NCBI RefSeq assembly: GCF_036324365.1 | Contig: NZ_CP137080.1 | Span: 2,480,001 to 2,544,000 of the forward strand | Reading direction: 5' to 3' | DNA: 64,000 nt | DNA from: Microbacterium limosum | GTDB lineage: Bacteria > Actinomycetota > Actinomycetes > Actinomycetales > Microbacteriaceae | In this document: piece by piece, positions 11,727 to 15,360 of the stretch | Numbering within the stretch: the first letter of the stretch is position 1 | Layout: the number at the start of each line of letters is the position of its first letter | The notes under the pieces: model-generated | Told to the model about the DNA's origin: nothing | The model's database searches: none | Seen by the model: the letters and a program-made list of their open reading frames with translations, nothing else | Position numbers and translations under genes: made by a program

Positions 11727-11789
11727 TCATACGGAGGGGCCTGCGCCGGTGAGCGACGCGAGTACGTCCGCGAGTGCGCCGGCGCCTAG
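11727..11789 (-). pseudogene. Detached 3' end of the M20 amidohydrolase gene
   Basis: Read on the minus strand, this short piece encodes GAGALADVLASLTGAGPSV and stop, a helix typical of the C-terminus of allantoate/carbamoyl amidohydrolases. It joins in frame to the main part at 14203-15360 when the two IS elements and one copy of the 4-bp repeat CTAG (11786-11789 and 14202-14205) are removed, restoring a protein of about 405 residues. Confidence 0.85.
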
Positions 11790-12726
11790 GGCGTGTCTGA
11801 CAAAGGTTTGGGGGTTTGATTGAGACCCTGGGGACGTGTCTCGGTTCCAGATGTTTTCGGATGCTCAGTGGTCGTTGATCGAGGGGATGCTGCCGAGTCC
11901 GACGGGTCGGCCGGGTCGGAAGTTCGCAGACGCGAGAACGATGGTCGAGGCGATCATCTACCGGTATCGGTGCGGGATCGCGTGGCGGGATCTGCCGGAG
12001 GTGTTCGGGCCGTGGCAGACGGTGTGGACGTGGCATCATCGGTTGGCCTCGGATGGCACCTGGGATCGGGTGCTCGCGAAGGTCACCGCGGCAGCGGATG
12101 CGGCCGGCATGGTCGACTGGTCGCTGTCGGTGGACTCCACGATCGCCCGCGCCCACCAGCACGCCACGAACACCACCCGCCTCACAGGGGGCTGGATCGA
12201 ATTACACGAATCCGGGGCTCGAGCCGCCTGATCACGGCATCGGCCGATCCCGCGGGGGCCTGTCGACGAAGATCCATCAGCTCGTCGACGGCAACGGCCT
12301 GCCGCTGGTGACCCTGATCACACCGGGTCAGGCGGGTGACTCGCCGATGTTCCTGCCGCTGATGGCGCAGTTGCGTGTGGGCCGCGACACGGGCAGGCCG
12401 CGGACCCGCCCGGACGCGGTGCGAGGCGACAAGGCGTACTCGTCCCGCGCGATCCGACATCATCTTCGATCACGCGGAATCAAGGCCGTGATCCCCGAGC
12501 CTGACGACCAGAAAGGCCATCGAAAGCGACGCGGTCCCCGCGGTGGCAGACCCGTGGGCCTGGACGCGGCCGACTACCGGAACCGCAACGTCATCGAGCG
12601 CCGCTACTGCCACATCAAGCAGTGGCGAGGCCTCGCGACTCGATATGACAAACACGCCGTGACCTACCGCGCCGCCGTCGTTCTCAACGCCGTCATCGCC
12701 TGGACCAAGGCTTTGTCAGACACGCC
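11790..12726 (+). mobile_element. IS5-family (IS427-like) insertion sequence
   Basis: A 937-bp element with perfect 16-bp terminal inverted repeats, GGCGTGTCTGACAAAG at 11790-11805 and its complement at 12711-12726. The left flank is CTAG (11786-11789), which fits the YTAR target of this family. The second CTAG is not at the right end but at 14202-14205, because an IS110-family element later entered at the right boundary. It interrupts the M20 amidohydrolase gene. Confidence 0.92.
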
Positions 12727-12730
12727 CTGA
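11836..12730 (+). CDS. IS5-family transposase in two overlapping frames
   Basis: The N-terminal part (11836-12231, 131 residues, GTG start) carries the DUF4096/IS5 N-domain (SDAQWSLIEGMLPSP, YRCGIAWRDLPEVFGPWQTVW) and the first catalytic region (VDSTIARAHQHA). The C-terminal part continues in the +1 frame from about 12160 to the stop at 12728-12730 (DHGIGRSRGGLSTKIHQLVDG, a VRGDKAYSSRAIR block and the final RRYCHIKQWRGLATRYDK region with the last catalytic acid). Related elements use ribosomal frameshifting to make one protein, so this may be functional rather than broken. The stop codon would be TAG if the normal CTAG flank were present; here the IS110 insertion turned it into TGA. Confidence 0.8.
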
Positions 12731-12763
12731 TATGGGGGTGGGGTTTGTCAAGGGGCAGGGGTG

Positions 12764-12798
12764 AGCGGACGCCGTGCCCGTCGGCTTCGGCGTCCGCT
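12764..12798. other. Strong hairpin near the left end of the IS110-family element
   Basis: AGCGGACGCCG (12764-12774) and CGGCGTCCGCT (12788-12798) form an 11-bp perfect stem with a 13-nt loop. It may mark the 3' end of the candidate guide RNA or protect the element from read-through. Confidence 0.5.
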
Positions 12799-12842
12799 CG
12801 TTCCGGTCGTGTCGGGTGGTGACGCGCGGGTCGTGTTCGACG

Positions 12843-12975
12843 CGTTGTCACTCTGATATGCGCGGGTTGGTTACCGCATGACGGCTTGTTCGGCGGGGCG
12901 TTCACGCGAGTCTAGAGATCGAGCGTGGCCAGCCTGGGCGGGTTGCTCATAGGGCGTGTCGCGAGTCGCCCGGAC
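12843..12975 (-). ncRNA. Candidate bridge (seek) RNA of the IS110-family element
   Basis: This stretch lies downstream of the transposase and on the same strand, where IS1111-type elements carry their guide RNA. On the minus strand, 12960-12951 reads GACACGCCCT, identical over 10 nt to the target side of the insertion site (12719-12728) and ending exactly in the CT core. A small hairpin follows (GAGC/GCTC at 12921-12924 and 12945-12948, with GCC/GGC inside), then CTAG (12912-12915), matching the right target half. Further on, 12860-12853 reads CATATCAG, the complement of the element's own left end CTGATATG (12727-12734). The order target loop, then donor loop, matches the known bridge RNA plan. 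RNA ends are approximate and a left-donor guide was not found. Confidence 0.6.
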
Positions 12976-13018
12976 GCTGCCGTCACCACCGTCGAGGACC
13001 GGAAGCAGGGGGGGCGGG

Positions 13019-14101
13019 TCAGGTCATGACGGCCAGGGACCAGCACCAGCCGGCGAGCTCGCGAGCGATCGCGGCGTTGGCGACGACGCTGCGCTTCCGG
13101 CGCGCCTGGAACCCGGCCCAGCGCTCGTGGAGACGCTGGTTGCCGGCGTGGCCTCGCGCCCGGGCTGCGGCGCTGGCGCGGTCCCATCGGGCGCGCATGA
13201 TCGGCGAGGTGGGCCGGTAGATCGGCCGGTGGTGCCAAGCCGCTTCGATCAGTAGCCGTCGGGCGTGGCCGTTGCCGGTCTTGGTGATCCCGCCCAGTGC
13301 GCGTGACGCCCCGGATGAGGACTCCGACGGGGTCAGGCCGACATAGGCGCCGATGCGGTGCCCGTCCAGCCGGGTCCAGTCGCCGATCTCGACCGCGAGC
13401 CCGAACCCGGTCAGCGTCGAGACTCCTCGCAGGCAGCAGAGCCGGTTCACGACGTCGGTGAACTCGCTGTCCGCGGCCATGCGGATGATCGCCGCGTCAA
13501 GACGGTCCCGCCGGTCGACGGCCTGGATCATCGCCTCGTAGGCGGCATCGAACGCGGCCTGCAGCCCGACCAGCTCGAACCGCTGCGATCGCAGCCAGGT
13601 GTCGTGCGCGACCGTCCATGCCTTCCCGCCCGCGTACTGGATGCCCTGCCGCAGCAACAGCTTGCTGACCCGGTGACGGGCGGACATCAGATCGCCGCGC
13701 GCATCCTCGCGGGCGCGCACCAGATCCCTGGCGGCCTCAGACTCGACGCTCGGGACGACCACCTCGACGATCTCCCCGAGCCGCAGCAGCCGGGCCAGAT
13801 GCACCGCGTCACGCGCGTCCGTCTTCACCCTGTCACCAACCGGGCGCTGCAGCTTCGATGGCGCCGCGACCACGCATCGCACTCCGGAGGCCGTCAACGC
13901 GCGCGCCAGCCCGAATCCCGTCGGACCGGCCTCATACGTCGCTGCGACCGGGCCCGGCAGGCCCGTCACCCAGGCGACGATCTCCTCGGTGCTGGAGCCC
14001 ATGCGCCGCTGCACGAGCTCCCCGGTTTGTTCGTCGATCGCGGCCGCGACCACGCTCCGCGCGTGCACATCCAGCCCGACACTCGTACGCTCAGATATCA
14101 C
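13019..14101 (-). CDS. IS110-family transposase (DEDD recombinase)
   Basis: A 360-residue transposase. The N-terminal RuvC-like DEDD domain shows SVGLDVHARS with the first Asp at residue 11, an ATYEAGPTG segment with the Glu, and KTDARDAVHLARLL with the final two Asp residues. The C-terminal Tnp_20 domain shows LRGVSTLTGFGLAVEIGD and the Ser/Gly-rich SESSSGAS...GGITKTGNGHARRLL block that holds the recombinase serine. The GTG at 14101 was chosen because GGAGG stands 5 bp upstream and the protein then begins ISERTSVGLDVH, the usual family start. The gene appears intact. These enzymes cut and join DNA guided by an RNA made from the element's own non-coding end. Confidence 0.93.
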   Translation of the reverse strand: MISERTSVGLDVHARSVVAAAIDEQTGELVQRRMGSSTEEIVAWVTGLPGPVAATYEAGPTGFGLARALTASGVRCVVAAPSKLQRPVGDRVKTDARDAVHLARLLRLGEIVEVVVPSVESEAARDLVRAREDARGDLMSARHRVSKLLLRQGIQYAGGKAWTVAHDTWLRSQRFELVGLQAAFDAAYEAMIQAVDRRDRLDAAIIRMAADSEFTDVVNRLCCLRGVSTLTGFGLAVEIGDWTRLDGHRIGAYVGLTPSESSSGASRALGGITKTGNGHARRLLIEAAWHHRPIYRPTSPIMRARWDRASAAARARGHAGNQRLHERWAGFQARRKRSVVANAAIARELAGWCWSLAVMT

Positions 14102-14184
14102 TGGGGCCTCCCTCACGTATGTGGATAGGCGAAGCCGGGATACCGGCCCGCAACCCACGGTCTACGCGAGCGGAGGCCTCAGGC

Positions 14185-15360
14185 TCAACCACTCATAGCG
14201 TCTAGCTCGGCGTCGGCGTCCTCGACGAGCTCCTCGGGCGCGTGGGAGACGCCCGTCGGATTGCGGACGAAGAGCATGCCCGTGGGGATCGCACCGGCCA
14301 TGACGCCGGCGTCGTGGCCGGCCCCGCTGCCGAGCTCCGGTGCGCCCGGCAGGGCGGCACGCAACTCCGCGCGCAGGCTGCGGTCGAAGTCGACGGTGGG
14401 GCTCAGCGACTCCTCACGTACGTCGGCCCGGCATCCCTCCTCCGCCGCGATCCGTTCGACCGAGTCGCGGATGCGGGTGACGAGCGCCGCCGTCACGGCA
14501 TCTTCGGGATGACGCGCGTCCAGCCAGAAGGACACCCTCGACGCGATCACGTTCGTCCCGCCCGGCACCGGCTCGATCCGTCCGACCGTCGCGCGCGCGT
14601 CAGGCACGTCGCGCGCGACCTCCCGGATCGCCACGACCATGCGCGCTGCCGCGACCATCGGGTCACGGCGGTCGGCCATGAGGGTCGTGCCGGCATGGTT
14701 GCCCTGCCCGTCGACCGTGATGCGCCAGCGCCCATGCCCGAGTATCGAGGACCCGACCGCGATCGGGTGGCCCAGGTCGATGAGTCCGCGCCCCTGCTCG
14801 ACGTGCAGCTCGACGAAGCACCCGATGCCGTCGAGCGACTCGCGATCCATGCCGACATGTCGGGGATCGAGACCGTCACGGATCAGCGCCTCCGCGAGCG
14901 TGGTGCCGTCCCGGTCTTTCAGCGCGAGCGCGCGTTCGGGTGCGACGGCTCCCGCCATCAGGCGCGAGCCGAGGCACGCGAGACCGAACCGGGACCCCTC
15001 CTCCTCGGGGAACACCGCCAGCGCCACCGGACGCGACGGTGTCACGCCGCGCTCCCGCAGCAGGTCGACAGCGGCGAGCGCGGATGCGACGCCCAGCGGT
15101 CCGTCGTAGCCGCCGCCACCGGGCACCGAGTCGAGGTGGCTGCCGGTGACGACAGCCGGACCAGCGCTGCCTCGGGGGCGCCACCACGCCCAGACGATGC
15201 CGTTGACGTCTCGATGCACCTCCAGCCCGCGGGCCTCGGCGTGGGCGCCGAACCACTCGCGCAGCTCCCTGTCCTCATGACCGTAACCGGGCCGCAAGTA
15301 GCCGCCGCGCGGATCCGCGCCGATGTGTGCGATCTCGGCGAGCATGCCCGCGACGCTCAC
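14185..15360 (-). CDS. M20 family allantoate/N-carbamoyl amidohydrolase, C-terminus replaced by IS DNA
   Basis: A di-zinc amidase of the allantoate amidohydrolase/N-carbamoyl-L-amino-acid hydrolase group. Metal and substrate motifs are all present: GSHLDSVPGGGGYDG, FPEEEGSRFG, CFVELHVEQG and the late TGVSHAPEE. The GTG at 15360 overlaps the stop of the upstream oxidase (GTGA). The native protein would be about 405 residues; here codon 386 is followed by five codons from the IS110-family element (DAMSG, stop at 14185) and the last 19 native residues are stranded at 11727-11789. All active-site motifs remain, so partial activity is possible, but the last helix is lost. It belonged to an operon with the amine oxidase and the XRE-cupin regulator. 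Confidence 0.9.
   Translation of the reverse strand: MSVAGMLAEIAHIGADPRGGYLRPGYGHEDRELREWFGAHAEARGLEVHRDVNGIVWAWWRPRGSAGPAVVTGSHLDSVPGGGGYDGPLGVASALAAVDLLRERGVTPSRPVALAVFPEEEGSRFGLACLGSRLMAGAVAPERALALKDRDGTTLAEALIRDGLDPRHVGMDRESLDGIGCFVELHVEQGRGLIDLGHPIAVGSSILGHGRWRITVDGQGNHAGTTLMADRRDPMVAAARMVVAIREVARDVPDARATVGRIEPVPGGTNVIASRVSFWLDARHPEDAVTAALVTRIRDSVERIAAEEGCRADVREESLSPTVDFDRSLRAELRAALPGAPELGSGAGHDAGVMAGAIPTGMLFVRNPTGVSHAPEELVEDADAELDAMSG

Follow-up and report, generated by a model that had tools for sequence, protein, structure and literature searches.

Introduction

The described systems closest to the locus reported here are the bridge RNAs of IS621 and the IS110 group (PMC11208160, PMC11208158) and the seekRNAs of IS1111-group elements such as ISEc11 and ISKpn4 (PMC11187229); the comparisons that follow draw on excerpts of these papers. 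In the IS621 and IS110-group systems, a DEDD recombinase with a Tnp serine domain works with an RNA that bears two target guides on an internal loop, with the core in both. The core is CT when read from the RNA-bearing end, and a segment of the RNA matches the element's own end. The element studied here, which lies in a 64-kb stretch of DNA (the window, meaning the whole stretch that was analysed), is alike in all of these respects. However, the RNA of IS621 is placed in the left end, whereas that of the window element is downstream of the gene. The LTG of IS621 has nine letters and the RTG four (PMC11208160, PMC11208158), whereas four or five letters plus N-CT are constrained in the clade of the window element. 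The clade also differs in its nearly fixed CTAG and in that no closed donor loop is predicted for it.

IS1111-group elements resemble the window element in having a non-coding region downstream of the gene and in the order of the guides, the top-strand-complementary guide coming first and the bottom-strand-matching guide second. Their subterminal inverted repeats are usually 11–13 bp and their transposases 330–350 aa (PMC11187229), whereas the two 60-bp ends of the window element share at best an ungapped stretch of 8 bp with one mismatch, and its transposase has 379 aa. Exceptions with a downstream non-coding region exist within the IS110 group (PMC11187229, section 6). The window element, with its IS110-like protein and ends, probably belongs to these IS110-type elements, for which the excerpts of PMC11187229 give neither a target code nor an IS-end pattern.

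The use of a mobile element as a target also has precedents. IS4321 and IS5075 target the terminal repeats of the Tn21 family (PMC11208160), and ISEc21 targets a stretch in IS3-family transposase genes (PMC11187229, section 12). Unlike these elements, the window element enters the duplicated CTAG just outside its host element, and the host is left uninterrupted. Neither a code anchored on CTAG nor the sharing of IS5 and IS481 ends as targets is described in the literature listings and paper excerpts that were consulted. The kind of bridge RNA and the targeting of other elements are known; the CTAG-anchored code and the targeting of IS5 and IS481 ends appear to be a new variant.

The Element and Its Transposase

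The genome is a single contig of 2.79 Mb. The following features of the element were placed in the window:

12729..14203, minus strand: IS110-family element with a single copy of the core; boundaries from a 100% identical second copy and the flanks of relatives
12727–12728 and 14202–14203: the element core, CT on the plus strand and AG on the transposase strand
12727..12734, plus strand: core CT and right terminus of the element, CTGATATG; read directly, in the second copy, and in the flanks of relatives
14202..14205, no strand: CTAG of the left junction, half of it from the split IS5 duplication, with the core CT shared
13019..14158, minus strand: transposase gene, 379 aa counted from the first possible start; Pfam and NCBI family models

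A non-coding region of 290 nt lies downstream of the transposase gene, and the upstream stretch is short. On the transposase strand the insertion site reads GAG-CT-AG-GGCGTGTC. The transposase exceeds the cut-offs of PF01548 (DEDD_Tnp_IS110; 49.4 bits, cut-off 29), PF02371 (Transposase_20; 51.4 bits, cut-off 21.3), and NF033542, 'IS110 family RNA-guided transposase' (187 bits, cut-off 140). Residues D30, D114, D117, G274, P277, S282, and G283 are invariant among 15 aligned proteins, and E76 is nearly so. D30, E76, D114, D117, and S282 form the DEDD plus serine pattern, with S282 within the motif G--P----SG; these residues were placed by motif and not aligned to IS621, for which phmmer gave no match. 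The motif and the IS621 residues are taken from excerpts of PMC11187229 and PMC11208158. A PDB sequence search with the transposase returned no IS110-family chain at E<=1 and only weak matches to an unrelated enzyme. A near-identical transposase is present in M. lacticum (L038).

Three further observations concern the element and its surroundings. A minus-strand reading frame at 14185–15360 runs into the element, and its codons past the CTAG come from the left end of the element. A TTGACA hexamer is present some 20 nt in from the right end (12742–12747), also in aligned relatives, and is a possible −35 box of a promoter formed in the circle. Remnants of a decayed relative, about 76% identical to the coding region of the element, lie in the same genome at G000:C1:844971-845292 (L003, L004).

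Guides in the Non-Coding Region

Three segments of the non-coding region correspond to the target or to the element's own end:

12951..12960, minus strand: target guide 1, GACACGCC-CT, which reads the right flank AG-GGCGTGTC
12912..12916, minus strand: target guide 2, T-CTAG, which reads the left flank N-CTAG
12853..12860, minus strand: putative donor guide CATATCAG, with the letters of the element's right terminus

The preliminary description of this DNA held that positions 12960–12951 equal the left half of the real target, and direct reading together with a pattern search confirms it. The 64-kb window contains three copies of the ten-letter GACACGCCCT, at 12719–12728 (plus strand, the right end of a neighbouring IS5 element and CT), 11788–11797 (minus strand, the left end of that IS5), and 12951–12960 (minus strand, the non-coding region). 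Shuffles give an expectation of 0.29 per 64 kb on both strands, or about 0.0013 per 290 nt after scaling. The CTAG at 12912–12915, proposed as the other half of the target, is weak on its own as a 4-nt palindrome, but in relatives the corresponding letters change together with those of the left flank. The T of target guide 2 is unmatched in the window, where the flank letter is G. The proposed match of 12860–12853 to the element terminus holds on direct reading, CTGATATG being found at 12853–12860 and at 12727–12734.

A Conserved RNA Structure

The modelled bridge RNA region was defined by the span of the alignment:

12817..12996, minus strand: modelled bridge RNA region

Of 47 non-redundant RNA sequences, 46 were aligned (L058 was left out). 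The RNAalifold consensus on these 46 sequences has 28 pairs, which hold in 96.2% of cells. Changes on both sides are seen in 71 paired cells compared to 20.7 in shuffles, and the covariation score is 0.172 compared to 0.075 when shuffled (reached in 0/500) and at most 0.035 when the partners are slid. Helices 3 and 4 bound a loop that has guide 1 (columns 43–52) on one side and the CTAG of guide 2 (columns 116–119) on the other, and the hairpin above this guide-bearing loop varies in sequence while its pairs are kept. A conserved, covarying structure covers both target-guide matches. Together with the guide–flank covariation in relatives described below, it supports the suggestion that the transposase strand encodes a bridge RNA.

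The window RNA folded alone is no better than shuffles (z −0.32), and a search of positions 12500–14400 against Rfam release 15 gave two chance-level matches far under the gathering score. The proposed order of a target loop followed by a donor loop stands in part. The target guides do come first and the copy of the element end after them, and the ATATCAG of the terminus is repeated inside the RNA, downstream of the target guides, in most relatives. In the predicted consensus, however, ATATCAG sits between two hairpins with no closed loop around it, and the donor loop is therefore only putative.

A Short Guide–Flank Code in Relatives

The comparison of guides with flanks began from 84 elements, comprising 79 of 80 loci (L038, truncated, was left out) and five own or same-genus copies. 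Guide 1 was read between CCGCG and ATGAGCA; it ends in CT, and its complement was compared with the flank after AG. A recognisable right end was present in 70 of the 84, and 10 more were dropped for a short flank or an unreadable guide. The resulting 60 rows, 58 of them distinct, hold 33 distinct guides and include L091, which was kept with a wrongly placed end and scores as a mismatch. Related copies are not independent, and the permutations given here are therefore descriptive controls.

Over the 33 guides, positions 1–4 of guide 1 match the flank in 91, 97, 97, and 79% of cases compared to 29, 35, 44, and 26% when all pairings are taken as the expectation. At positions 5–8 the flank is matched in 30, 21, 27, and 21% compared to 26, 16, 22, and 19%. 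The match sums of the 33 distinct guides were reached by 0 of 20000 permutations. At 14 junctions outside this first set, in which some guides are repeated, 53 of 56 cells match (0 of 20000 permutations). For all 74 unique junctions, the matches at positions 1 to 8 number 60, 72, 73, 60, 29, 19, 20, and 26, and all four code letters are matched at 48.

Guide 2 was compared with the left flank in 83 rows, 12 of which lack a readable guide 2 or left end. The four letters of the guide equal those of the flank for CTAG in 59 of 61 rows, TTAG in 6 of 7, ATAG in 1 of 1, and TCAG in 2 of 2. The total of 68 out of 71 was reached by 0 of 20000 shuffles. At position −4 on the left side, the flank agrees with the letters before CTAGA in 70% compared to 30% (n=23). 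The letters of guide 2 follow the flank including the CT, and therefore the CTAG beside most copies appears to be read by the RNA rather than to be part of the element.

As judged from insertion sites, the code under visible constraint is short, N-CT-AG-NNNN. Guide 1 reaches over four letters, five in some relatives, and perhaps up to eight with the guide found in the window. The ten-base guide of the preliminary description is therefore retained as a match in the window, but across the clade only four of its eight non-core letters (five in some relatives) are constrained. Ten-letter specificity as a general rule is ruled out, with letters 5–8 near background across the clade.

A separate case is that of L080–L086 (Sinomonas sp. 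ASV322), where seven junctions with one guide read AGTTGC or AGCTGC; the guide calls for T at position 1, yet C is tolerated there.

IS5 Ends as Proposed Landing Sites

IS427-type IS5 elements insert at CTAG, and the pairs of CTAG in the present data show it. In the window, the IS5 element beside the IS110-family element has CTAG on both sides, the near one being split by the IS110 element:

11790..12726, plus strand: neighbouring IS5-family element of 937 bp with ends GGCGTGTCTGACAAAG; Pfam and NCBI models, comparison of ends
11786..11789, no strand: far CTAG duplication of the IS5 element, which with GGCGTGTC forms the genome's only exact CTAGGGCGTGTC

CTAGGG occurs 86 times in the genome compared to 2864 for the reversed word; CTAGGGCG occurs 20 times, and the single CTAGGGCGTGTC is the free end of this same IS5. 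The window guide is found at nine junctions, in one of them with a single-letter change (G089b), and four of the nine are at IS5 ends. These are the window, G249 (L117), where the IS5 has 937 bp and CTAG at its far end, and two junctions in L118, which is plasmid NZ_CP038257.1 of Microbacterium sediminis YLB-01. In this plasmid, a single 1307-bp IS5 transposon, whose two ends are identical over at least 15 bp, stands between two IS110 copies in facing orientation, and the annotation runs IS110, hypothetical protein, IS5, IS110. Of the remaining junctions, L090 lies where an ordinary reading frame has its 3′ end, L101 and L135/L151 have flanks with other letters and are not shown as IS5 ends, and L168 has a flank of 124 nt only. 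An 8/8 match with the window guide is seen at three junctions: the window, L117, and L090.

In 396 genomes of the order, the exact window guide was found in two genomes besides the window's own, with junctions that repeat L090 and L101, and it is also present in one viral contig; a strict guide pattern gave three loci among the 296 genomes examined from the class. When right flanks of 900 nt or more were searched for inverted repeats irrespective of family, six clear cases emerged, namely the window, both L118 junctions, L064, L097, and L117. The L117 repeat (15/20 letters) is not above its own control maximum, and many other flanks are at control level.

A second copy of the element, 100% identical over 1482 bp, lies in the same genome at G000:C1:415360-416841 (L006). 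Its site reads GGGATAT-CT-AG-GGCCGTGC, matches three of the four guide-1 code letters, and is not an IS5 end. To its left it adjoins the end of another, second element of IS110 type, which occurs at five places in the genome, once in two pieces, and has 417 aa. The preliminary description had seen the element as programmed for IS5 ends and had named other sites with the same non-coding region as the opposing case. The same RNA at CTAG|GGCCGTGC is such a case, and exclusivity is therefore refuted. Insertion at IS5 ends with CTAG is real in the window, in G249, and at both ends of one M. sediminis plasmid transposon, but it is not exclusive; nor do the other copies all sit at IS5-type ends, with L006, L090, L101, and L135/L151 carrying the guide at other sites.

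The further designation as a hyperparasite of another IS is imprecise. The element is outside the inverted repeat of an uninterrupted IS5 and therefore would not travel with it. The IS5 frame ends CCC-TGA at the junction where an intact CTAG would give CCC-TAG, which leaves the last residue unchanged. With the insertion outside the repeat and the last residue kept, a landing site fits better than parasitism.

Several other features of these elements were seen. The IS5 transposase at 11836–12730 consists of two overlapping frames of 131 and 225 aa, and that of the L118 IS5 of frames of 129 and 250 aa, so that a programmed frameshift is suggested. The L118 transposon (L118:4022-5328) has a second reading frame, for a hypothetical protein, besides the transposase. 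L076 (Actinomycetospora lutea) has a short left flank that begins beyond its CTAG with GGCGTGTC, which resembles an IS5 end and lies on the side of guide 2, and L103 has a weak IS5 match of 33 residues. The second IS110-type element, which beside copy L006 lies within G000:C1:415360-418340, has a longer non-coding region on the other side of its gene, and its junctions, CCTA|GATATCCC and ATTAG|GCTGG, again have CTAG in the site.

IS481 Ends as Proposed Landing Sites

The duplication consensus of IS481 is NCTAGN (excerpt of PMC3053399), and ISLxc2 of Leifsonia xyli is an IS481 element with an NCTAGN duplication and similar ends (excerpt of PMC2516522). Among 41 distinct guides, 10 read AG-N-TGT, and equal use of the bases would give 0.6. 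When the column frequencies of the guides themselves serve as the reference, the excess has p=0.003, with related guides not being independent. At the 22 junctions with N-TGT guides, TGT is in the flank of 16 and an IS481-type terminus starts at 7. The IS481-end motif of these 7 itself begins with N-TGT, so the contrast with 0 of 52 other junctions is partly built in. IS481 transposase sequence follows 5 of the 22 N-TGT junctions compared to 0 of the 52 others (p=0.0016). It lies behind L057, L064, L092, L097, and, as a remnant, L128; the first four exceed the NCBI 'IS481 family transposase' cut-off. Both IS481 ends are readable in two cases only, L064 and L097, where six-letter duplications, GCTAGG and CCTAGT, stand at both ends and the IS110 element is inside one of them. 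The left flanks, 42 of which exceed 300 nt, have no match to the IS5 or IS481 queries.

Proposed Mechanism and Alternatives

By sequence, one side of the target loop of the RNA reads N-CT-AG and the opposite side AG-NNNN, with AG on the transposase strand as the shared core. To judge from published work on IS621, ISEc11, and ISEc21, the transposase would pair a circular form of the element with the target through the RNA, and recombination would take place at the core, with cleavage next to it and no new duplication. The window guide reads CTAG|GGCGTGTC, which is the IS5 duplication plus terminus, and the element would have inserted into the duplication immediately beyond the IS5 end. Elsewhere in the clade, guides read CTAG-N-TGT, the IS481 duplication plus terminus. 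The circle junction is anticipated to be CATATC-AG-ACGCTATG, and candidate target sequences for comparing guide letters are CTAGGGCGTGTC, CTAGGGCG with unrelated letters behind it, CTAGGGCC, and TTAGGGCG.

Guides, flanks, and covariation together make it very probable that the window element belongs to the IS110 family and encodes, downstream of the transposase gene, a bridge RNA (seekRNA) that reads the real insertion site. The contrary explanation places CTAG preference and end recognition in the protein and treats the guide matches as chance or as copies of the flank. It can point to the 10-nt match of the window as one case and to the unremarkable fold of the single sequence. However, guide letters follow flanks across dozens of distinct guides and at the junctions added later, and a change of the guide-2 CT to TT, AT, or TC is accompanied by the same change in the flank, which leaves a guide-free explanation hardly credible.

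The meaning of the IS ends is where the accounts of an RNA-read site part. That the element is a strict hyperparasite dedicated to IS5/IS427 ends is improbable, and in its strict form already refuted. In its favour are the four junctions at IS5 ends, two of which lie at the two ends of a single transposon, and the position of the genome's only exact CTAGGGCGTGTC at the other IS5 end, but an identical copy occupies another site, L090 has an 8/8 match at the 3′ end of an ordinary frame, and the insertion is outside the repeat of an uninterrupted IS5. The association may instead be incidental: the RNA reads as described, CTAG plus about four letters suffice, and IS ends are among the few suppliers of CTAG. 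We place this just short of an even chance. Consistent with it are the near-background letters 5–8 over the clade, the rarity of CTAGGG, and the 20 CTAGGGCG sites of which one is a free IS5 end, as well as the five of nine window-guide junctions not shown as IS5 ends and the 15 of 22 N-TGT junctions that are not IS481 ends. It is less easily reconciled with the over-representation of N-TGT guides (subject to the relatedness noted above), the 8/8 matches at the window, L117, and L090, and the occupation of both ends of one IS5 transposon. Tentatively, and at somewhat less than an even chance, we propose that the bridge RNAs of the clade evolved to read the duplicated CTAG of other insertion sequences with the initial letters of their termini, GGCG(TGTC) for the IS5/IS427 type and N-TGT for IS481. 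CTAG is rare in the genome and present at the ends of such elements; these ends would therefore offer landing sites that recur and are probably harmless. Elements that insert at CTAG may be exploited by the clade in general.

Implications

A natural code of a bridge-RNA clade, N-CT-AG-NNNN, was obtained from insertion sites alone and is compact and testable. The nearly fixed CTAG beside these elements would be a sequence that the RNA reads and not one that the element carries. The combination of IS110-like ends with an IS1111-like placement of the RNA in one element is useful for understanding what separates the two groups. Insertion of IS5 or IS481 at a rare CTAG would leave an address for RNA-guided look-up, a concrete reason for the nesting of elements. 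If this is true, each new IS5 or IS481 copy makes two harmless, addressable landing sites, and an RNA-guided element could therefore, with changes to only a few letters of its guides, follow two DDE families that are unrelated to each other.
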